Shown here piece by piece: positions 10,483 through 30,251 of a stretch of 56,597 bases of DNA; the stretch's first letter is position 1, and each line of letters begins with the position of its first letter. The notes under the pieces are model-generated. The model was not told the DNA's origin, did no database searches, and saw nothing but the letters and a program-made list of their open reading frames with translations. The stretch lies in NCBI GenBank assembly GCA_026417625.1, contig JAOACW010000009.1:24777-81373 (forward strand), read 5' to 3'. Position numbers and translations under genes: made by a program. The stretch comes from Syntrophales bacterium (GTDB lineage Bacteria; Desulfobacterota; Syntrophia; Syntrophales; UBA8958).

Positions 10483-11841
10483 ATGGAACCTAGAAAAAAA
10501 GAGTACCTTAGCAGGTTAAAAGAGGCAGGCTCAGTTCTCGAGGATAGTTGCCCCGGTTATTTGATCCCAGAGGTGTGTTCCAACCTGGCCTTCGCCCTGC
10601 CCAATGCTCAATCCTTGGAAGAGGTGGCGGCGTTCCCAGGGCGAATAGTCAGAATAGGGGATAGGATAAAGGTTGTCTCTGATCCTCAGTTCGGAGCGTC
10701 AAGTCACGTAGCTAACATTGTACTTACCGTGATGAGGCATGATAGTCAATATAGATCGGCAATGAACATACGTTTTGATGAAGAAATTCTAAAACGCTGC
10801 CAAGAAAAGGGACTCAGTATAGCCGAGTTTGATCGTACGCTGGAACCTGATGATGTAAAAGCGAAAGAAGGTGCAACATTAGAATGGGGAGTGGATTATG
10901 CCATTCGCGAATGTGGGTTTGTCCCTGATATAATATTTGATCGAGGTAGTGTGGGTAAGGAACCTATGATAAGAGTGATCGGTAGGGATCCACAGGACGT
11001 TGTCGACAAGATTATGCGTATAGCTGGAATAGAGAGGAGGATAACTGATCAAATGAAAGAAAAAAGGGAACTAAAAGAATTGGAAATAACAAGGGCTATT
11101 GTTGAGAGGTACATGCATAAATTCCTGAATCACACGGAGGTGGACGTTGCTGTTGTAGGTGGTGGTCCTGCAGGACTCGTCGCTTCTTATTTCCTGGCTA
11201 AAGGTGGACGTAAGGTGGCGATATTTGAGCGGAAATTGTCCATAGGCGGTGGCATGTGGGGTGGTGGAATGATGTTTAATGAAATAGTGGTTCAAGAAGA
11301 AGCGAAGGGTTTACTGGATCTCTTTGGGGTATCAACTGAACCATACGGAGATGGTTACTATACGGCCGATGCCATTGAAGCAGTAACAACCATATGCTCT
11401 TGCGCCATGAAATCAGGTGTTAAAATCTTCAACTGTATAACAGTCGAAGACGTGGTAATTAGAGACAACAGGGTAATAGGACTGGTCATCACTTGGTCCC
11501 CAGTTGAAATGACGGGACTTCATGTAGATCCTCTCACCATAATGGCCAAATGTGTAATCGACGCCACAGGCCATGATACAGAAGTCCTGAGGGTAATAGA
11601 AAGAAAAGCGGATATTACCCTGGAAACTCCCACGGGAAAAATAATGGGAGAACGTTCAATGTGGTCTCACAAAGCTGAGCTACTAACTTTGGAAAATACA
11701 AAACGCATATGCCCCGGTGTGTACGTAGCAGGGATGTCCGCAAACGCGGCCTTCGGAGGGCCACGTATGGGACCCATATTCGGAGGGATGTTGCTATCTG
11801 GAAAGAAGGTAGCAGAACTTATTCTAAAAGATGAATTTTAG
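10483..11841 (+). CDS. thi4: Fusion of thiamine-phosphate synthase ThiN and thiazole synthase Thi4
   Basis: 452-residue two-domain enzyme. Residues about 11-185 match the ThiN domain: [37 protein letters not shown] (69-81), [11 protein letters not shown], and [17 protein letters not shown] (158-174). ThiN joins the pyrimidine and thiazole moieties of thiamine. Residues about 205-452 are a Thi4 adenosine-diphospho-thiazole synthase with nucleotide-binding GGGPAG (226-231), [20 protein letters not shown], and [16 protein letters not shown] near the end. The position that is the sulfur-donating cysteine in yeast Thi4 is His347 (TGLHVDP), as in archaeal enzymes that use free sulfide, so this is expected to be a catalytic, sulfide-dependent, non-suicidal enzyme. 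Both activities are predicted from sequence only. Confidence 0.88.
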
Positions 11842-15527: not shown

Positions 15528-17417
15528 TTACATAACTCCATGGGGTTTCATGCTGCTTTCGTATTCTGCTCTAAGGGCGATCTTAGTAGCTTCCTCCATA
15601 TCCTCCACACGTTTAACCCAATCTTCAAACTTGATATCCACCCCGAAGATCCCCACCATCTCGTCGTTATCATCAATTATGGGTGCGGAAACCGTAAAAC
15701 ATAAAGCGCCCGTCATTCGAGATATGTAAAAGTTAGTAACGTGAACCTTACCGGTACGTAAGGGGACGATGAACCATTCGCGATCTGACTGATCCGTGCC
15801 CACACCGTAATTCTCGTATTTAGACCTATCCGCTATGTTCGTGATGTTCCTCGTTATCTTCTTACCGTTCATGTCCACAACGTAGGCAAACTGTATGGAA
15901 GGATTCTCCTCAATACATTTCTGCATGATGGGTTCCTGGAGCTCAGGCTTCATTGTTTTCATCACGGGATGCTCAATAACCTGCTTGACCACAGCAATGG
16001 CCGCCTCGGCGGCGCGATGTTTGATCCGATCGAGTTCGGACATGAAAAGTTCAGGAATGTACGTTCGAACCAGTCTTTCCATCTCTTCGTTAGATATACT
16101 GGTTACCCTGCCTTTTTCGTATTCCTCCATTATCCTCTTGTGGATCTTTGATACACCGGGATGTCTCTTATCAACTGCATTTTCGCCAGAAAGCCCCAAG
16201 TGCGTGTTTATCCAAAAGGCAATTCCTGCCTTGCCAGATTTGTCCGTTACCATAGGAACAATAGGTCGTTTGAGCAGTTTCTTCGTGTCAAAGATGTTAT
16301 AAATCTCTTCGTTCTTCAAAATTCCATCTACGTGTATACCTGCTTTTGTCAGATTAAACTCGGCACCTACAAACGGGAAATTCGGCGGTATGCGATAACC
16401 CACTTCCTTTTCGTAATAACGGGCAATATCAGTTATAACAGTGGTATCGATACCATCATGCGAACCTTTAAGGGCAATATACTCCATTATCAGCCCCTCA
16501 AGGGGTGGATTGCCCGTGCGCTCTCCAATACCAAGCAGTGTTCCATTTGCGGCGGCGCACCCGTAAAGCCAAGCTGTCGTCGCGTTTATGAGAGCTTTAT
16601 GAAAGTCATTGTGGCCATGCCATTCCAGTAAATGGCCCGGTACTCCCGCCTCATCAATGAAAGCTCTTACAAGCTTATCCACGCTACGTGGCAAACTTGC
16701 CCCGGGGTAAGTTACACCAAAACCTAGGGTATCGCATAGTCTTATCTTGATATCTATTCCAGATTCCTCTCTGAGTTTCATCAATTCAATGGCAAAAGGA
16801 ATACAGAAACCATAAATATCAGCTCTCGTGACATCTTCAAAATGACAACGAGGAACAATACCCGCTTCAAGTAGGGTTCGAACAACCTCGAGGTATTCTT
16901 CCACAACCTGTTTTCGCGTTTTGTTTAATTTCAAAAAAATGTGGTAATCAGAGACAGAAGTTAGAATCCCTGTCTCCTTGAGTCCAGCCGCAACTACAAG
17001 AGGAACATCTTCTTTTTTTGCTCTGATCCAGCCAGTAATCTCAGGATACCTGTAACCAAGGGCGAGACAGTTTTCCACCGCTTCACGATCTTTCGCGCTG
17101 TAAAGGAAAAACTCCGTCTGCCTTATGACACCCTTTTCGCCTCCAAGCTTGTGCAAAAAAGTATAAAGATCAACTATTTGTTTAACGGTGTACGGTGGTC
17201 TAGACTGTTGACCATCTCGGAAGGTGGTATCGGTGATGAATATCTCATCCGCAGGATCGATGGCGATGATACGATTATCAAAATCTATGCGCGCCACCTC
17301 ATGGTAGGGAAATATTTCTTTCTGAAGATTAGGCTCCAGAACATCCTTCAATTCGTATTGCCAGAATTTTGTGTGTTCATGCTCAAGTACCTTTTTCTTT
17401 TGACTCCACTTTGCCAT
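15528..17417 (-). CDS. Predicted Re-citrate synthase with C-terminal Cache/PDC-like domain
   Basis: Predicted to condense oxaloacetate and acetyl-CoA to citrate with Re stereochemistry, the first step to glutamate in anaerobes lacking Si-citrate synthase. Residues about 50-460 form a DRE-TIM (isopropylmalate/homocitrate synthase-like) module with DTTFRDGQQSRPPYT from D63, the Re-citrate-synthase form of the motif; LEWHGHNDFHKALINA and GNPPLEGLIMEY are also present. Residues about 499-609 read as a Cache/PDC sensor-type domain: NPSIQFAYVVDMNGKK, DREWF, TNFYISRMTGALCFTVSAPI, and MVGIFGVDIKFEDWV. There is no signal or membrane segment, so the domain is cytoplasmic here. About 72 kDa, comparable to the characterised Syntrophus aciditrophicus enzyme as I recall it. 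Alternatives: homocitrate or citramalate synthase. RBS AGGAGG precedes ATG 17417. Confidence 0.8.
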   Translation of the reverse strand: MAKWSQKKKVLEHEHTKFWQYELKDVLEPNLQKEIFPYHEVARIDFDNRIIAIDPADEIFITDTTFRDGQQSRPPYTVKQIVDLYTFLHKLGGEKGVIRQTEFFLYSAKDREAVENCLALGYRYPEITGWIRAKKEDVPLVVAAGLKETGILTSVSDYHIFLKLNKTRKQVVEEYLEVVRTLLEAGIVPRCHFEDVTRADIYGFCIPFAIELMKLREESGIDIKIRLCDTLGFGVTYPGASLPRSVDKLVRAFIDEAGVPGHLLEWHGHNDFHKALINATTAWLYGCAAANGTLLGIGERTGNPPLEGLIMEYIALKGSHDGIDTTVITDIARYYEKEVGYRIPPNFPFVGAEFNLTKAGIHVDGILKNEEIYNIFDTKKLLKRPIVPMVTDKSGKAGIAFWINTHLGLSGENAVDKRHPGVSKIHKRIMEEYEKGRVTSISNEEMERLVRTYIPELFMSELDRIKHRAAEAAIAVVKQVIEHPVMKTMKPELQEPIMQKCIEENPSIQFAYVVDMNGKKITRNITNIADRSKYENYGVGTDQSDREWFIVPLRTGKVHVTNFYISRMTGALCFTVSAPIIDDNDEMVGIFGVDIKFEDWVKRVEDMEEATKIALRAEYESSMKPHGVM

Positions 17418-23426: not shown

Positions 23427-23521
23427 CCGTTTATGCAGGAAAAAAGGAGCCGTGGGCAGACCAATAAGTCCCCACGGCTCTAAAATTTTTAAGGGCCGGG
23501 GGTTCAACACGGCCCTTTTTT
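23399..23521 (+). promoter_or_regulatory. Transcription attenuator upstream of livK
   Basis: Alternative pairings can be read directly. Segment A, GGTCTGCCC (23405-23413, inside the leader peptide frame after the Phe codons), is perfectly complementary to segment B, GGGCAGACC (23454-23462). Overlapping B, GAGCCGTGGG (23447-23456) forms a 10-bp stem with CCCACGGCTC (23471-23480, segment C). C can instead pair its CGGCTC with GGGCCG (23493-23498), which is the 5' arm of the terminator AAGGGCCG (23491-23498) / CGGCCCTT (23510-23517) followed by U residues to 23521. So A:B with C:D would oppose termination, and B:C would allow it. A simple stall model does not give an obvious polarity. Confidence 0.6.
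23491..23521 (+). terminator. Intrinsic terminator before livK
   Basis: 8-bp stem AAGGGCCG/CGGCCCTT with an 11-nt loop and a six-U tract, located 30 nt upstream of the livK start. Because comEC is divergent, no upstream plus-strand gene needs it; it most likely acts on the livK leader. Confidence 0.7.
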
Positions 23522-23550
23522 CATATTCATTCAAAGTTTGGGGGTGCAAC

Positions 23551-24765
23551 ATGAAAGGCAAAAAATGGGTGGGAGTTTTACTATGTGCGTGTGTTATTAT
23601 TTTAGGATACCTGTCACCTGCCATTTCCGGACCAGGTAGCATTAAAGTGGGAGCTGCAATAAATCTGACTGGTCCTGCCTCCACCTGGGGTCAATACCAT
23701 GCAAAAGGTATACAGGATTACTTCCGATATGTTAACGAAGTTAAAAATGGAGTAGGTGGGAGAAAAATCGAAATGATCCTTGTTGACACAGCATACAAGG
23801 TGCCAGAAGCAATTGCCGCGGTAAAAAAATTTGCCGTACAGGACAACGTACACATGATTGCCACCTGGGGAGCCGGCGAGGGATTGGCTGCAAAACCCAT
23901 TATCCAAGAGTACCGCATTCCCACAATTAACTTCTCAACAAGCTGGGAACTTCTGGAAAAACCTATAGATTACATGTATTTACCTTTTGGACACTACAAG
24001 ATGGATTGCTACGCCATTCTGGATTATATAAAAGCCATCCACAAGGGTAGTGAACCTCCAAAGGTAGGCTTGCTCACCTTTAATAATGCCTATGGTAGAT
24101 CCATTCACCAACCCAGTTTGGAGTACGCAAAAAAGATCAAAGTGAATATAGTGGCCGTCGAAGAATTCCCTCCCCGGGCAGTTGACCTGACTACTGAACT
24201 CCTCCGTCTTAAAAATAATGGTGTGGAGTACGTATTCATGCAGATGCTACCTTCCGCCATTATAACAGCATTCAAAAGTGCCGACAAAATCCAATACAAT
24301 CCCATGTTTTTTGGGACGTGGACATCAACAGATCCCGATTTCTTCAAAATGGGCAAAGGGCTTATAAGGGATAGACTGATTATTCAGTTCCCTGGAGGAT
24401 TACCCTCGGACAACACTCCGGGAATAAAATTAATGGAACAGTTATGGAAACGCTATGGAACCGTCAAGTCATTCGATGCAGCCTACTGGGAAGGTGTTGT
24501 AGTAGCGATGATAATGGAGAGGGCTTTTACGCGCGCGCTGGAGATGTACAAGGACATAACCAGAGAGACCATCAACAGAGCAATGGAGAATTTCAGAAAC
24601 GAGGATTTCGGTGGGTTAGTGCCTAAAGTTACGTATACTCCAAATGACCATAGTGCATCCTTTAAGGCGCGCATCGTTAAAGTTAACGAAGACGGAACAT
24701 TTGTTCCACTTACAGAATTCTTTACACCCGGCAAAGATAAGATAAAACTTTTGAAGAAGAAATGA
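23551..24765 (+). CDS. livK: Liv-type ABC transporter substrate-binding protein
   Basis: Periplasmic receptor of a branched-chain amino acid/amide-type importer; 404 residues. Signal peptide about residues 1-27 (KGKKWVG then a hydrophobic core ending in SPAISG). Mature start IKVGAAINLTGPASTWGQYHAKGIQDYF is typical of the Peripla_BP_6 family, with KIEMILVDTAYKVPEAIAAVKKF and MIATWGAGEGLAAKPI following. The frame is open further upstream but ATG 23551 has GGGGGTG 4-10 nt before it and begins the signal peptide. Substrate cannot be read: the ligase within the operon suggests an organic acid, the leader peptide hints at an aromatic amino acid or related compound. Confidence 0.9.
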   Translation: MKGKKWVGVLLCACVIILGYLSPAISGPGSIKVGAAINLTGPASTWGQYHAKGIQDYFRYVNEVKNGVGGRKIEMILVDTAYKVPEAIAAVKKFAVQDNVHMIATWGAGEGLAAKPIIQEYRIPTINFSTSWELLEKPIDYMYLPFGHYKMDCYAILDYIKAIHKGSEPPKVGLLTFNNAYGRSIHQPSLEYAKKIKVNIVAVEEFPPRAVDLTTELLRLKNNGVEYVFMQMLPSAIITAFKSADKIQYNPMFFGTWTSTDPDFFKMGKGLIRDRLIIQFPGGLPSDNTPGIKLMEQLWKRYGTVKSFDAAYWEGVVVAMIMERAFTRALEMYKDITRETINRAMENFRNEDFGGLVPKVTYTPNDHSASFKARIVKVNEDGTFVPLTEFFTPGKDKIKLLKKK

Positions 24766-25574
24766 AAACTTTCAGAGGAGAACCAAGCATATTAAAGAAT
24801 AGAAATCCGGAAGATCGGCAGGCTGAACTTTCAGTTCAGAACCTCTCTCTATCATTTGGTGGTGTAAGGGCGCTCATAAACGTAAGCATTGAGGTCCATA
24901 CAGGCGAGATATTTGCCGTGATAGGACCAAACGGTGCAGGCAAAACTAGTCTTATGAACTGCATCACCGGTTTCTACAAACCTCAGGAGGGAAGGATTGT
25001 ATTTAATGGTAAGGATATTACGGGGCTCAACCCCCATAAACTGGTAAAGTTGGGTATAGGAAGAACTTTTCAAAATATAGAGCTCTTCCCACGTATCTCG
25101 GTCATTTCCAATCTGATGCTGGCAAGACATATCCACACACGTTATCCTTTTCTAAAGGCCCTCCTCTTCTCCCGGTCAGTCCGCGAGGAGGAAGTCAGTC
25201 ACAGACGCATCCTGGAGGAGCTCATAGATTTTCTAGAAATTCAGGCGATCCGCAAAAAACCTGTAGGTTCCCTCCCATACGGTATGATGAAAAGAGTGGA
25301 ACTGGGAAGGGCATTGGCACTTGAACCAAAACTCCTCGTTCTTGATGAACCCTTTGCGGGTATGACCTTTGAGGAAAAAGAAGACATGGTCCGTTTCATA
25401 AAAGAGATCAACGAAGCCTGGGGACAGACAATTATCCTTGTGGAACACGACATGTCCATAGTCATGAGCATTTCCCATCGTATTGCCGTGCTCAACTTCG
25501 GTGAGAAAATAGCGGAAGGACTTCCTGAAGAGGTAAGAAATAATCAGGAGGTGATCCGTGCATACCTTGGATAA
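24762..25574 (+). CDS. livG: Liv-type ABC transporter ATP-binding protein LivG
   Basis: One of two ATPases of the importer; 270 residues. Walker A GPNGAGKTS (55-63), Q-loop region GIGRTFQNIELFP, Walker B LLVLDEPFAGMT, and switch LVEHDMSIVMSI are present. The signature motif is LPYGMMKRVELGRAL, the LPYG form normal for LivG proteins. Start ATG 24762 overlaps the livK stop by 4 nt. Its last 17 nt overlap the ligase gene. Confidence 0.93.
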   Translation: MKTFRGEPSILKNRNPEDRQAELSVQNLSLSFGGVRALINVSIEVHTGEIFAVIGPNGAGKTSLMNCITGFYKPQEGRIVFNGKDITGLNPHKLVKLGIGRTFQNIELFPRISVISNLMLARHIHTRYPFLKALLFSRSVREEEVSHRRILEELIDFLEIQAIRKKPVGSLPYGMMKRVELGRALALEPKLLVLDEPFAGMTFEEKEDMVRFIKEINEAWGQTIILVEHDMSIVMSISHRIAVLNFGEKIAEGLPEEVRNNQEVIRAYLG

Positions 25575-27492
25575 ACCACCCGTCACGATTCCGCAGATGC
25601 TAATCTATCAAGCTCACCACTTAGATGACAAAGTATATGCTATTCGAGAAAAGGCATATGGGATCTGGCAAACCTATACGTGGCGGGATTACCTGGAGTA
25701 CACAAAAAAAACTGCGCTTGGTTTGAAGAGACTGGGTGTAAACCGAGGGGATATTGTAGCCATTGTAACAGACAATATCCCCGAATGGTTATTCACAGAA
25801 ATTGGGGCACAATCAATAGGTTGTACCACCATCAATTTGTTCACCTCCTCCATCCCTGAGGAACTCTGCTTTTCTTTGAACAGAGTAGAAGCAACCTGTG
25901 TAGTCGTTCAGAATCAAGAACAAGCAGATAAAATGCTAGAGATCAGGAACAAAACCCCTCATGTCCGCAAAGTTGTTGTAGTGGATACGACGGGCATGAG
26001 GGATTATTGGCAGGATCCCTGGTTTATACCCTTCAGGGAAGTATTGAAGATCGGGGAAAGAGCCGACTCGGAGACACCTGAGGAATTCTACAAAGAGGTA
26101 AGAAGAGGAAAGGCAGACGATATAGCGGTAATGATTCAAACGTCGGGTACTACAGGTGTTTCTAAACAGGCAATGCTCACTCATAGGGGCTTGCTCGCTA
26201 TGGGGCGGAAATGGAAGGAAGCATTGAACTTGGAACCTGGTGAAAACTGGCTTTCCATGTCACCACCGGCCTGGATAGTGGATCAGATGTGGGGGTTAGG
26301 TGTGGCGTTGGTGTGCGGTATGACCATGAATTTTCCAGAAACGCCGGAAACTATAAGTGAGGATTTCAGAGAGATAGGGCCTGCCGTCATAGTCACTTCC
26401 TCTCGATTCTGGGAAGACATGGCCTCTAGAATCCGGGTAAAAATGAGCGATGCCGGTTACATAAAGAGAAAACTCTTCACATGGGCAGAGCTTATAGGGC
26501 GTAGGGTTATAGATTACCGCTTTAACGGCAGCGATATCCCTCTTCATTACAAAGTTCTCCACAGGTTCTCGTCTTTTGTGATCTACAAACCTTTGCTTGA
26601 CCGCATAGGTTGCCTTCGCTTGAGGGCAGCTCTTACAGGAGGACACCCTATAAGTCCCGACGTAATCAAGTTCTTCCAGGCCATCGGCCTTAATCTAAAA
26701 CAGTGTTACGGTCTCACAGAAGGTGGGGGAATATTCCAGGTTCAACCTGACAACGAGGTAAAACTGGAAACTGTTGGCAAACCACTACCGGGAGTAACCG
26801 TTCGCCTATCACCCGAGCAGGAAGTTCAAGTTAAAAGTGACACGCTCTTTGCAGGATACTACAAAGATTACAGGGCAACAGAGGCAGCTTTTACAGAGGA
26901 CGGTTTTTTGCGCACAGGTGATGCGGGCTACATAGATCAGAACGGCCATCTCATAATAATCGGAAGAAAAGAGGACATTATTAGGGATAAAAGGGGGAAT
27001 GCGTTTTCGCCTGATTTTATAGAAACCCGTTTAAAATTCAGTCCTTACATAAAAGAAGCGGTTGTCTTTGGGGAGGGAAGACCGTACATAACAGCCCTAA
27101 TAAATATAGATATGGAGAATGTTGGAAACTGGGCTGAAGAACGTCTTATACCATTTACCACATATATGGATCTCACGCAGCGAGAAGAGGTGGAAGAGTT
27201 GATAAAAGCAGAGGTAAAGTCAATTAATAATCAGTTGCCAGAGGTCATGCGTATTAAAAAGTTCATACTCCTCTTCAAACTTTTGGACGCCGATGATGAA
27301 GAGTTGACCCGTACTGGCAAAGTGAGGAGACGTTTCATCTACGGTGTTTACATAGACCTAATAGAGGCAATGTATCGCCCAGGAACGGAAAAGGTAAAGT
27401 TCACCGGAAAGATCCGCTATCGGGACGGAAGGGTAGGTGAGGTAAGTACCACGGTGAGGATTATTGACGTAGACACTTCAGAGGGGAGATAA
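25558..27492 (+). CDS. Long-chain-type acyl-CoA synthetase (AMP-forming) inside the Liv operon
   Basis: Activates a carboxylic acid to its CoA ester via an acyl-adenylate; 644 residues, FadD15-like. The P-loop reads IQTSGTTGVSKQAMLTHRG, A5 is LKQCYGLTEGGGIF, A7 FLRTGDAGYIDQNGHLIIIGR, A8 KEDIIRDKRGNAFSPDFIE, and the C-terminal lysine motif is LTRTGKVRRRFI, so the catalytic set looks intact, unlike the protein at 7526. GTG 25558 starts inside livG and is preceded by AGGAGGTGATCC (25546-25557), complementary over 12 nt to a typical 16S rRNA 3' end. Its position between LivG and LivH suggests that the imported substrate, or a related acid, is thioesterified on entry. Confidence 0.9.
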   Translation: MHTLDKPPVTIPQMLIYQAHHLDDKVYAIREKAYGIWQTYTWRDYLEYTKKTALGLKRLGVNRGDIVAIVTDNIPEWLFTEIGAQSIGCTTINLFTSSIPEELCFSLNRVEATCVVVQNQEQADKMLEIRNKTPHVRKVVVVDTTGMRDYWQDPWFIPFREVLKIGERADSETPEEFYKEVRRGKADDIAVMIQTSGTTGVSKQAMLTHRGLLAMGRKWKEALNLEPGENWLSMSPPAWIVDQMWGLGVALVCGMTMNFPETPETISEDFREIGPAVIVTSSRFWEDMASRIRVKMSDAGYIKRKLFTWAELIGRRVIDYRFNGSDIPLHYKVLHRFSSFVIYKPLLDRIGCLRLRAALTGGHPISPDVIKFFQAIGLNLKQCYGLTEGGGIFQVQPDNEVKLETVGKPLPGVTVRLSPEQEVQVKSDTLFAGYYKDYRATEAAFTEDGFLRTGDAGYIDQNGHLIIIGRKEDIIRDKRGNAFSPDFIETRLKFSPYIKEAVVFGEGRPYITALINIDMENVGNWAEERLIPFTTYMDLTQREEVEELIKAEVKSINNQLPEVMRIKKFILLFKLLDADDEELTRTGKVRRRFIYGVYIDLIEAMYRPGTEKVKFTGKIRYRDGRVGEVSTTVRIIDVDTSEGR

Positions 27493-27495
27493 ACG

Positions 27496-28374
27496 ATGGA
27501 TTTTCTACTCCAGCTTGTGATCAATGGTTTAAGTCTCGGTTTGTTGTACGGACTTTCTGCGATGGGATTCGTGATGATATTTAAATCATCTAGTGTCCTC
27601 AATTTTGCCCATGGGGAACTTCTCGCCTTTGGTGCTTACCTGTTTCTTGCTCTCACTACTTGGGGTAAGTTGTCAATAGGGTTAACCTTTCTAGTAACAC
27701 TTGTTGGATGCTTCGTCCTGGGGTTTGTGATTGAACGCATTTTTTTGCGTCCCCTCATAGGAGAACCCCTGATATTTGTCATCATGCTTACCGTGGGTCT
27801 TGCAGCTATTTTCAAAGGTTTAATTCTTCTTTTGTGGGGCGGTAATCTCTACACGTACTCCGATTTTCTACCTAATTGGCTGGGCCTATCCCTTGGTTCG
27901 GTGAATATACCACCTGTTTACTCTATGGTGTTCATTGTGGGTATAGTTTTCTTAGCGCTCTTCGGTTTGTTCTTTAAATTTTCCTCCCAAGGTATCTATA
28001 TGCGGTCGGTCGCAGACAATCAAAAAGCCGCTTTATCCCTTGGGGTTAACGTAAGAAGGGTCTTTGCCCTTTCCTGGGCCATTGCGGCGCTTGTCGCTGG
28101 AATGAGCGGCATAGTCCTTGGAATTATAAACGGCGTTAACGTCCATGAACTGAGTGCCATTGGGTTGAAGGTCTTTCCCGTTGTCATACTAGGCGGGCTG
28201 GAAAGCATTGGAGGTGCCATAATTGGTGGCATAATAATCGGTCTTCTCGAATCCATGACTGGCGGTTATGTATCTCCTTCTCTTAAAGATGTGGTACCTT
28301 ACGTAGTCTTAGTACTCATCCTTATGGTGAAACCATACGGACTCTTTGGTGAAGTAGAAATTGAGAGGGTGTAA
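27496..28374 (+). CDS. livH: Liv-type ABC transporter permease LivH
   Basis: First integral-membrane subunit; 292 residues with about eight helices. Typical LivH blocks: LQLVINGLSLGLLYGLSAMGFVMIFKSSSVLNFAHGELLAFGAY at the N-terminus in segments, MRSVADNQKAALSLGVNV (the EAA-like coupling region), and the C-terminal VFPVVILGGLESIGGAIIGG. ATG 27496 is 3 nt after the ligase stop, with GAGGGGAG upstream. Confidence 0.94.
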   Translation: MDFLLQLVINGLSLGLLYGLSAMGFVMIFKSSSVLNFAHGELLAFGAYLFLALTTWGKLSIGLTFLVTLVGCFVLGFVIERIFLRPLIGEPLIFVIMLTVGLAAIFKGLILLLWGGNLYTYSDFLPNWLGLSLGSVNIPPVYSMVFIVGIVFLALFGLFFKFSSQGIYMRSVADNQKAALSLGVNVRRVFALSWAIAALVAGMSGIVLGIINGVNVHELSAIGLKVFPVVILGGLESIGGAIIGGIIIGLLESMTGGYVSPSLKDVVPYVVLVLILMVKPYGLFGEVEIERV

Positions 28375-28380
28375 AAATAA

Positions 28381-29448
28381 GTGAAGAAACTCATTTTTCA
28401 TCCATGTGGTAATTTCAGAGAAAGCTACGAAGAGGAGCTTAACATCTTCGAAACGGATTTTGGACGTTTATTCGTAATTCTCGGTATAGTGTTGTCACTC
28501 TTGCTCCCTTTCATCTGCAAACCCTATGTACTTTACGTAATAAATTTCATCTGCATCATGTCTATTGCCGCCGTGGGTTTAAACATCCTCATAGGTTACA
28601 CAGGTCAGATTTCCCTTGGTCATGGGGCATTTTTCGGTGTTGGTGCTTACGGCGCAGCCATATTAGCCACCCGTTGGGAACTTCCCCTTTTTATCACCAT
28701 TCCAGCTGCTGGGCTCATTTCTGCACTTGTAGGCATGGTCTTTGGGTTACCCTCCAGTCGACTGAAGGGCCTTTATCTAACAATAGCTACTCTGGCCGGT
28801 CAATTTATCATCGAATACGTCCTGGTTCACTGGGAATCAGTCACTATGGGCACAATGGGCATTACTTTACCTGCTCCGGACTTATTCGGATGGAAGATCA
28901 GGGGAGATAGGGCATTTTTCTTCTTAACGTTTCCTATATTTATCGTCATGATATGGTTTGCAGTCAACATTGTGAGAACCAAATACGGTCGCGCTTTTAT
29001 GGCTATAAGGGATAACGATAGGGCTGCGGAAGGCATGGGTATTCCCCTCTTTCCGTACAAACTCCTATCCTTCGGTGTAAGTTCATTTTACGCAGGTGTT
29101 GCTGGTGCCCTTTTTGCTTACTACACGGTAAGCGTCACTTCCGAACCTTTTAACCTAGCCCTTTCGGTGGAGTTCGTAGCAATGGTGATCATAGGTGGTC
29201 TAGGAAGCATAACAGGTTCAGTTTTCGGCACAGTGTTCATAATGCTACTTAACGAATTCCTCCGTGTTATTACGGAAGCACTCATGAACATCCATTTTCT
29301 CTCTCACCTCGCGCTTAACATGGCCCCACTACGGGAGTTCACATTCGGGATTGCTATTGTCTTATTCATTCTTTTCGAACCTCGGGGGCTAGCTGAAGTC
29401 TGGCGCATTATAAAGTCAAGTTTTCGCCTCTGGCCATTCTCTTATTGA
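28381..29448 (+). CDS. livM: Liv-type ABC transporter permease LivM
   Basis: Second integral-membrane subunit; 355 residues with an N-terminal cytoplasmic extension of about 30 residues before the first helix. Family landmarks: GLNILIGYTGQISLGHGAFFGVGAYGAA across two segments, FMAIRDNDRAAEGMGIP (coupling region), and the C-terminal EFVAMVIIGGLGSITGSVFG. Starts at GTG 28381, 6 nt after livH; a GAGAGGG sequence lies somewhat distant upstream. Confidence 0.94.
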   Translation: MKKLIFHPCGNFRESYEEELNIFETDFGRLFVILGIVLSLLLPFICKPYVLYVINFICIMSIAAVGLNILIGYTGQISLGHGAFFGVGAYGAAILATRWELPLFITIPAAGLISALVGMVFGLPSSRLKGLYLTIATLAGQFIIEYVLVHWESVTMGTMGITLPAPDLFGWKIRGDRAFFFLTFPIFIVMIWFAVNIVRTKYGRAFMAIRDNDRAAEGMGIPLFPYKLLSFGVSSFYAGVAGALFAYYTVSVTSEPFNLALSVEFVAMVIIGGLGSITGSVFGTVFIMLLNEFLRVITEALMNIHFLSHLALNMAPLREFTFGIAIVLFILFEPRGLAEVWRIIKSSFRLWPFSY

Positions 29449-29459
29449 GAAGGTGAGTT

Positions 29460-30251
29460 ATGCTTTTACAGGTTAACAATATCTCTGTTGTTTATTCTGA
29501 TGTTATTCAGGTACTGAAAGGTGTTTCGCTTGAAGTGGAGGAACACAAAATTGTTGCCCTCTTGGGCAGTAATGGTGCCGGGAAAACAACAACCCTGAAA
29601 GCTATTTCCGGCTTACTAAAACCTGAAAATGGAAAGGTAACAGATGGAGAGATCATTTTCGATGGAAGACCCATCCATAACCTACCACCAGAAGATATAA
29701 CGAGAATGGGGATCATTCAGGTTCTTGAGGGAAGACAGCCCTTCAAATATCTCACCGTTGAGGAAAACTTGAGGGTGGGAACCGCAACCCGTTTCGGTAA
29801 ACCGTTCAGAGATGACATGGAAATGGTATACAACTACTTCCCCGCTCTAGCCAGCCGGAAGAAAGTTAAAGCCGGTTATCTAAGCGGTGGAGAACTGCAA
29901 ATGCTCGTTATCGGCAGGGCACTCATGGCCCATCCCCGACTATTACTCTTAGACGAGCCTTCTCTGGGTCTTGCTCCCCTGGTTGTGCGGGAGATTTTCG
30001 GAATAATAAAAAGGATCAATGAAGAACAGGGAACTACCATTGTACTTGTGGAGCAGAACGCAAATATGGCCCTGCAGATTGCACACTACGGTTACGTAAT
30101 GGAGAATGGACGAATAGTCATGGAGGGTCCGTCAGAAGAGCTCAGAGAAAATCCCGATATTAAGGAATTCTATCTCGGTATAGGTGCATCAGGAGAAACG
30201 AGAAATTACCAGGTGGTGAAATCTTACAGAAGAAGAAAACGCTGGTTATAA
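29460..30251 (+). CDS. livF: Liv-type ABC transporter ATP-binding protein LivF
   Basis: Second ATPase; 263 residues. Walker A GSNGAGKTT (Ser in place of the usual Pro), signature YLSGGELQMLVIGRAL, Walker B LLLLDEPSLGLAPL and switch LVEQNANMALQIAHYGYVMENGRI, the LivF-specific Gln in place of His. A basic tail (SYRRRKRWL) extends beyond the usual end and overlaps the convergent recJ stop by 6 nt. This closes the importer operon; no strong terminator was seen at its end. Confidence 0.93.
   Translation: MLLQVNNISVVYSDVIQVLKGVSLEVEEHKIVALLGSNGAGKTTTLKAISGLLKPENGKVTDGEIIFDGRPIHNLPPEDITRMGIIQVLEGRQPFKYLTVEENLRVGTATRFGKPFRDDMEMVYNYFPALASRKKVKAGYLSGGELQMLVIGRALMAHPRLLLLDEPSLGLAPLVVREIFGIIKRINEEQGTTIVLVEQNANMALQIAHYGYVMENGRIVMEGPSEELRENPDIKEFYLGIGASGETRNYQVVKSYRRRKRWL

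Follow-up and report, generated by a model that had tools for sequence, protein, structure and literature searches.

A predicted Re-citrate synthase with a C-terminal Cache domain in a Syntrophales bacterium and its relatives

The locus and its surroundings

The window, meaning the whole 56,597-nucleotide stretch of contig JAOACW010000009.1 that was analysed, comes from a Syntrophales bacterium and carries on its minus strand a complete open reading frame in which a catalytic barrel of the HMGL superfamily is followed by a Cache/PDC domain. The gene and its parts are as follows.

15528..17417, minus strand: complete open reading frame, predicted Re-citrate synthase with C-terminal Cache domain (629 aa, ATG start; full-length model)
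16419..17240, minus strand: catalytic HMGL-like TIM barrel, residues 60-333 (PF00682, E 2.6e-31)
17205..17219, minus strand: RDGQQ active-site motif, residues 67-71, invariant in 65 relatives
16605..16619, minus strand: HGHND motif, residues 267-271, invariant in 65 relatives
16050..16397, minus strand: post-barrel subdomain, residues 341-456 (partial HCS_D2; helices in the model)
15600..16049, minus strand: Cache/PDC sensor domain, residues about 457-606 (domain-only model, Foldseek, VIA-align)
15621..15932, minus strand: MCP-like_PDC_1 match, residues 496-599 (Pfam PF22673)
15795..15797, minus strand: T541, in the slot of the first aromatic of the amino-acid motif, non-aromatic here (alignment)
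15771..15782, minus strand: R546-x-W548-F549, counterpart of the R/W pair that binds the carboxylate in amino-acid Cache domains (alignment)
15726..15728, minus strand: Y564, equivalent of PctA Y144 (alignment)
15636..15638, minus strand: D594, matching PctA D173, the Asp that binds the amino group (alignment)

From knowledge of the family, the HGHND residues are presumably ligands of a divalent metal. The post-barrel subdomain matches HCS_D2 (PF22617) at residues 358-381 weakly and under the cut-off (E 0.00097), and a Pfam scan of the 629-aa protein found neither LeuA_dimer (PF08502) nor any domain other than the enzyme and Cache parts. The full-length AlphaFold2 model, built from the alignment of 65 sequences that also underlies all conservation counts given here, has a mean pLDDT of 88.0 and a pTM of 0.69, at which the relative placement of the domains is uncertain.

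In the window and in its closest relatives, the gene is flanked by aspS and a uvrD-like gene. These neighbours are uninformative, and a local operon was therefore discarded as a functional clue; the neighbourhoods of distant orthologues are informative. Elsewhere in the window (10483-11841, plus strand), a 452-aa open reading frame fuses the thiamine-phosphate synthase ThiN (residues 12-177, E 3.8e-62) to a Thi4-type thiazole synthase (residues 203-433, E 2.8e-80), uniting two steps of thiamine synthesis in a single polypeptide. In a further cluster (23452-30251, plus strand), genes for a Peripla_BP_6-type periplasmic binding protein and for an ABC ATPase precede one for an AMP-binding acyl-CoA ligase (25558-27492), and a ligase in this setting suggests that an organic acid is taken up and activated; by size, the later reading frames of the cluster are candidate permease and ATPase genes.

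Identity of the enzyme

The best PDB matches of the catalytic part are homocitrate, methylthioalkylmalate and isopropylmalate synthases. The closest of these is the RAM-deleted form of Sulfolobus homocitrate synthase (6ktq), an enzyme that likewise bears an additional C-terminal domain but differs in its kind (RAM rather than Cache) and in its product (homocitrate rather than citrate). The possibility that the protein is itself an isopropylmalate, citramalate or homocitrate synthase, perhaps supplying the LeuA activity missing from its genome, draws on this shared superfamily, on the significant scores of the TIGR02090 and LeuA models, and on the lack of a LeuA match in the genome at the threshold used. 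However, all of these scores lie far under the NCBIfam cut-offs: 147 bits against 485 for TIGR02090, 143 against 517 for the LeuA subfamily NF002085, 136 against 463 for NifV, and at most 119 for the LeuA equivalogs. Moreover, the genome already encodes a citramalate synthase (CimA), and among genomes of the phylum that carry the gene for this enzyme, a separate LeuA is also present in 63 of 73.

Genome content points instead to citrate synthesis. The genome, which is 97.8% complete, encodes five HMGL-family proteins, namely the citramalate synthase, two HMG-CoA-lyase-like proteins, a carboxylase-type subunit and the Cache-fused enzyme, and no Si-citrate synthase (PF00285) was found in it. Aconitase and a PF00180 (Iso_dh) gene adjoin each other on its contig C6. 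Across a sample of 148 genomes of the phylum, 63 have only the gene for this enzyme, 64 only Si-citrate synthase, 10 both and 11 neither. This mutual exclusion is strong (Fisher p 2.7e-19, uncorrected for relatedness; p 1.8e-16 when only full-length PF00285 matches are counted). Within six families (f2, f17, f33, f35, f41 and f46), some genomes have only this enzyme and others only Si-citrate synthase, a split that argues for repeated replacement of one by the other.

The genes that follow distant orthologues, identified by NCBIfam, are likewise of the TCA type. NADP-isocitrate dehydrogenase adjoins the orthologue in a Desulfovibrio (L055) and a member of the Syntrophorhabdaceae (L032), the NAD-type enzyme adjoins it at L036, L067 and the unfused L131, aconitase at L063 and L067, and malate dehydrogenase at the unfused L130. 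On plasmids of two Deinococcus species (L134 and L135), an unfused distant homologue, about 38-41% identical, lies divergent beside a gene annotated as citrate/2-methylcitrate synthase; the reading frame in L134 seems broken.

An orthologue in genome G181 is 76% identical over residues 1-624, has the same length of 629 aa and includes the Cache domain. Its computed mass is 71,766 Da, which a Ser-Strep tag would raise to 72,893 Da, and the tagged Re-citrate synthase subunit of Syntrophus aciditrophicus was reportedly found by Kim et al. (2013, J Bacteriol 195:1689) to be 72,892 Da. G181 is probably S. aciditrophicus (SB), whose Re-citrate synthase has the locus tag SYN_02536. To our knowledge, the C-terminal domain of the S. 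aciditrophicus enzyme has not been described as a Cache sensor. The G181 orthologue shares with the window enzyme both the aspS and uvrD-like neighbours and the Cache domain, and no important difference between the two was seen. Clostridium kluyveri and the Heliomicrobium/Dehalococcoides clade have Re-citrate synthases of the same reaction and superfamily, which are shorter. With the Syntrophus and C. kluyveri enzymes, HM1_2993 shares an identity of only about 28% (PMC12016533). The Re-citrate synthase of S. aciditrophicus is known and has been isolated (PMC12016533); this also speaks against an isopropylmalate-type activity.

Genome content, gene neighbourhoods and orthology thus back the reading offered in the initial annotation, that the protein is a Re-citrate synthase; it is very probably one, and would be the only recognisable citrate synthase of the cell. 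An isopropylmalate, citramalate or homocitrate synthase, the outcome named there as contrary and checked here computationally, is set aside by model cut-offs, genome content and neighbourhood and is highly improbable. As for leucine synthesis in this organism, which has a citramalate synthase, the missing LeuA match may mean that the organism cannot make leucine, that it makes leucine by another route, or that the assembly has a gap there.

Fold and pocket of the C-terminal domain

The sequence pattern that had drawn attention to residues about 499-609 is in place (YVVDMNGK at 512-519, REWF at 546-549, TVSAPI at 575-580 and VGIFGVDI at 588-595), and residues 496-599 match the Pfam family PF22673 (E 4.1e-12; score 47 bits, cut-off 27). 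The second Pfam match, dCache_1, is sub-threshold. PF22673 is matched (E <= 0.001) by every one of the 65 relatives scanned, so the match is not a chance event in one sequence. When residues 457-629 were modelled alone (mean pLDDT 89.5, pTM 0.81), the domain was composed of a long N-terminal helix, a PAS-like sheet and a C-terminal helix, and the top PDB matches of this model were the sensor domains of the sporulation kinase KinD, of WalK/YycG and of the Campylobacter chemoreceptor Tlp3. Foldseek gave E values of about 1e-7 to 1e-6, with the KinD and Tlp3 domains best, and VIA-align gave Z scores of 15-17 to WalK/YycG, KinD and Tlp3; CitA domains likewise match in fold. Both a curated profile scoring above its cut-off and the predicted fold therefore place the domain in the Cache superfamily, and it almost certainly has a Cache fold, as proposed in the initial annotation, rather than the LeuA-type or unrelated fold named there as contrary. 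The layout of a transmembrane receptor is absent: the protein has no signalling output domain and, in agreement with the initial annotation, no membrane segment (the 19-residue Kyte-Doolittle mean peaks at 1.28).

Cache domains that bind amino acids carry the motif [YFWL]xxxx[RK]xW[YFW]x(13-17)[YFW]x(27-34)D, in which the carboxylate of the ligand is bound by the first Tyr, the Arg and the Trp, and its amino group by the second Tyr together with the Asp (PMC11237719). In the chemoreceptor PctA, these residues are Y121, R126, W128, Y129, Y144 and D173 (PMC10104139). The corresponding residues of the enzyme are T541, R546, W548, F549, Y564 and D594, of which five of six fit. The five later positions also fit in 60 of the 65 relatives. 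The full motif occurs in only 10, mostly of the Desulfovibrionales type, and 50 miss nothing but the first position. By column, R546 is kept in 60 of 65 sequences (S or H replaces it in 3), W548 in all 65 and F549 in 64, Y564 is Y in 55 and F in 8, D594 is invariant (65/65), and the T541 column holds Y in 8, mostly of the Desulfovibrionaceae type. Mean column identity across the Cache domain is 46%, and only four of its columns are invariant, W548 and D594 among them. Membership in the class dCache_1AA was considered and rejected, since the first motif position is T541 and there is one Cache module where the class has two; with the first aromatic missing, the domain can formally be said only to work like a member.

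In a clade of Lentisphaerota, Spirochaetota and Fibrobacterota (L062, L065, L068, L070, L074 and L079), R546 is replaced by K or H in several members, and a QVHTQRG-like sequence stands where others have TRNITxxxD. This altered pocket suggests a different or lost ligand in that clade.

KinD, Tlp3 and PctA have both the fold and pocket residues in common with the enzyme's domain, but they lie outside the membrane, contain two Cache modules and drive signalling, whereas the enzyme has one module, in the cytoplasm, on a metabolic protein. KinD raises the possibility that the domain senses a 2-oxoacid or other carboxylate, like KinD with pyruvate or CitA with citrate, and reports substrate supply or product level. 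Its sensor, for which PDB entry titles give a pyruvate complex and an R131A mutant, is the best match of the isolated domain by both sequence and Foldseek; R131 aligns with R546, and the match in fold to CitA points the same way. However, KinD has F and A where the enzyme has the invariant W548 and D594, residues typical of amino-acid binding, and no CitA-type sequence match rose above the cut-off. In the alignments, Tlp3 and PctA have both W and D, a distribution that favours the amino-acid type. By its residues, the pocket is closer to those of amino-acid sensors than to that of KinD, and a 2-oxoacid or carboxylate sensor of the kind described is rather unlikely.

Spread of the fusion

The initial annotation treated the Cache domain as a peculiarity of one protein. 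The fusion is real, but within the phylum most members of the family have it as their normal form: 73 of the 148 sampled genomes, a more even set than the list of best relatives, carry the gene, and in 71 of these 73 the match reaches the Cache region. In the other two (G016 and G034), it stops at about residue 457. A scan of named genomes found at least 589 stretches encoding relatives, from which the best 80 were kept, a selection biased to full-length and similar sequences. Judged by record names, fused relatives occur in Thermodesulfobacteriota, Nitrospirota, Spirochaetota, Omnitrophota, Elusimicrobiota, Lentisphaerota, Fibrobacterota, Margulisiibacteriota and others, and orthologues are found in about ten bacterial phyla. 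Recurrence in independent genomes and contigs rules out a chance or assembly-artefact fusion. As a possible donor, no other Cache domain of this type was found in the organism's own genome.

Unfused forms also exist. Those of G016 and G034 and the Deinococcus plasmid homologue comprise the HMGL part only, with a weak HCS_D2 match in L131, and a Planctomycetota relative (L082) ends at 461 aa. In the tree of the catalytic part, the unfused forms are spread over three positions, with support too modest to order fusion and loss; the fusion itself is old. Since unfused relatives exist, the Cache domain is not needed for catalysis. These relatives also bear on the earlier statement that ordinary homologues have a LeuA allosteric domain in this position. 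It holds for LeuA and for the organism's own citramalate synthase, in which the barrel is followed by HCS_D2 and then LeuA_dimer (PF08502 at 380-518), but not for the three unfused close relatives scanned (L130, L131 and L135), in which the regulatory domain is absent.

The occurrence of unfused relatives and the loss of R546 in a few sequences could also mean that the Cache domain senses nothing and is a purely structural module for dimerisation or tetramerisation that replaced the LeuA domain; Cache/PAS domains are described as acting as dimerisation modules too (PMC8694187). However, the positions of W548, D594 and the near-invariant R546 are those of ligand contacts in amino-acid Cache domains, and they are conserved in a domain that elsewhere falls to about 25% identity. 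A structural module that senses nothing is accordingly unlikely.

A candidate regulator of citrate synthesis

The domain is likely to be ligand-responsive, and the Re-citrate synthase is probably regulated by it, through cytoplasmic binding of a small alpha-carboxylate metabolite, most plausibly an L-amino acid, which might be glutamate or a related compound. Several features of the sequences would count against such regulation, namely T541, the single Cache module (the motif was defined on double-Cache domains), the unfused relatives and the R546 replacements. In this model, the enzyme would open the oxidative branch, which leads through citrate, isocitrate and 2-oxoglutarate to glutamate, by condensing acetyl-CoA with oxaloacetate. 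The single cytoplasmic Cache domain would occupy the slot held in LeuA and citramalate synthase by the LeuA allosteric domain; barrel, linker and a C-terminal regulatory domain are shared with those enzymes, but LeuA_dimer and the Cache fold belong to different families. The regulatory domain would thus have been swapped, a weak HCS_D2-like linker and a Cache domain standing against the HCS_D2 and LeuA_dimer of CimA. A ligand in the Cache pocket would place its carboxylate at R546 and W548 and its amino group at Y564 and D594, and binding may alter the catalytic tetramer via the long N-terminal helix of the domain (residues 461-481). The outcome would be feedback control of citrate synthesis.

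As to the ligand, a small amino acid or a carboxylate is plausible from the residues of the pocket, and the chances that its class is amino acid are evenly balanced. Glutamate is attractive because it is the end product of the pathway, but as the specific ligand it is a doubtful candidate. The wider proposal, that in many anaerobic phyla Re-citrate synthase is controlled by an amino acid through the pocket that chemoreceptors use outside the cell, is tentative and falls somewhat short of an even chance.

Cache domains have been described as essentially extracellular and as occurring exclusively in proteins with output signalling domains, YkuI_C and Diacid_rec being the only principally intracellular families (PMC4822843). 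These two families offer a precedent for a cytoplasmic Cache domain, and YkuI is a weak match to that of the enzyme, but they sit on signalling or regulatory proteins and not on a central-metabolic enzyme. In the open-access papers searched, no citrate, isopropylmalate or homocitrate synthase is described as bearing a Cache domain, although domain-architecture databases may show it. The arrangement is a familiar scheme, an HMGL synthase with a C-terminal regulatory domain, with an unexpected domain in it. A conserved Cache domain that looks competent to bind a ligand, on the enzyme at the entry to the oxidative TCA branch, would break the rule that such domains are confined to extracellular sensing and signalling. 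If regulation of this kind is real, the output of the Cache domain would be catalysis rather than signalling, a direct allosteric switch of a central-metabolic enzyme, and it would provide a soluble, assayable system in which ligand binding by a Cache domain is read directly as enzyme rate. If G181 is S. aciditrophicus, the characterised Re-citrate synthase has carried a Cache domain all along. For syntrophs, sulfate reducers and other anaerobes, the domain would fill the place of the regulator that their Re-citrate synthase has lacked, and its spread suggests that, across about ten phyla, the first step of glutamate synthesis is controlled by a borrowed sensor.
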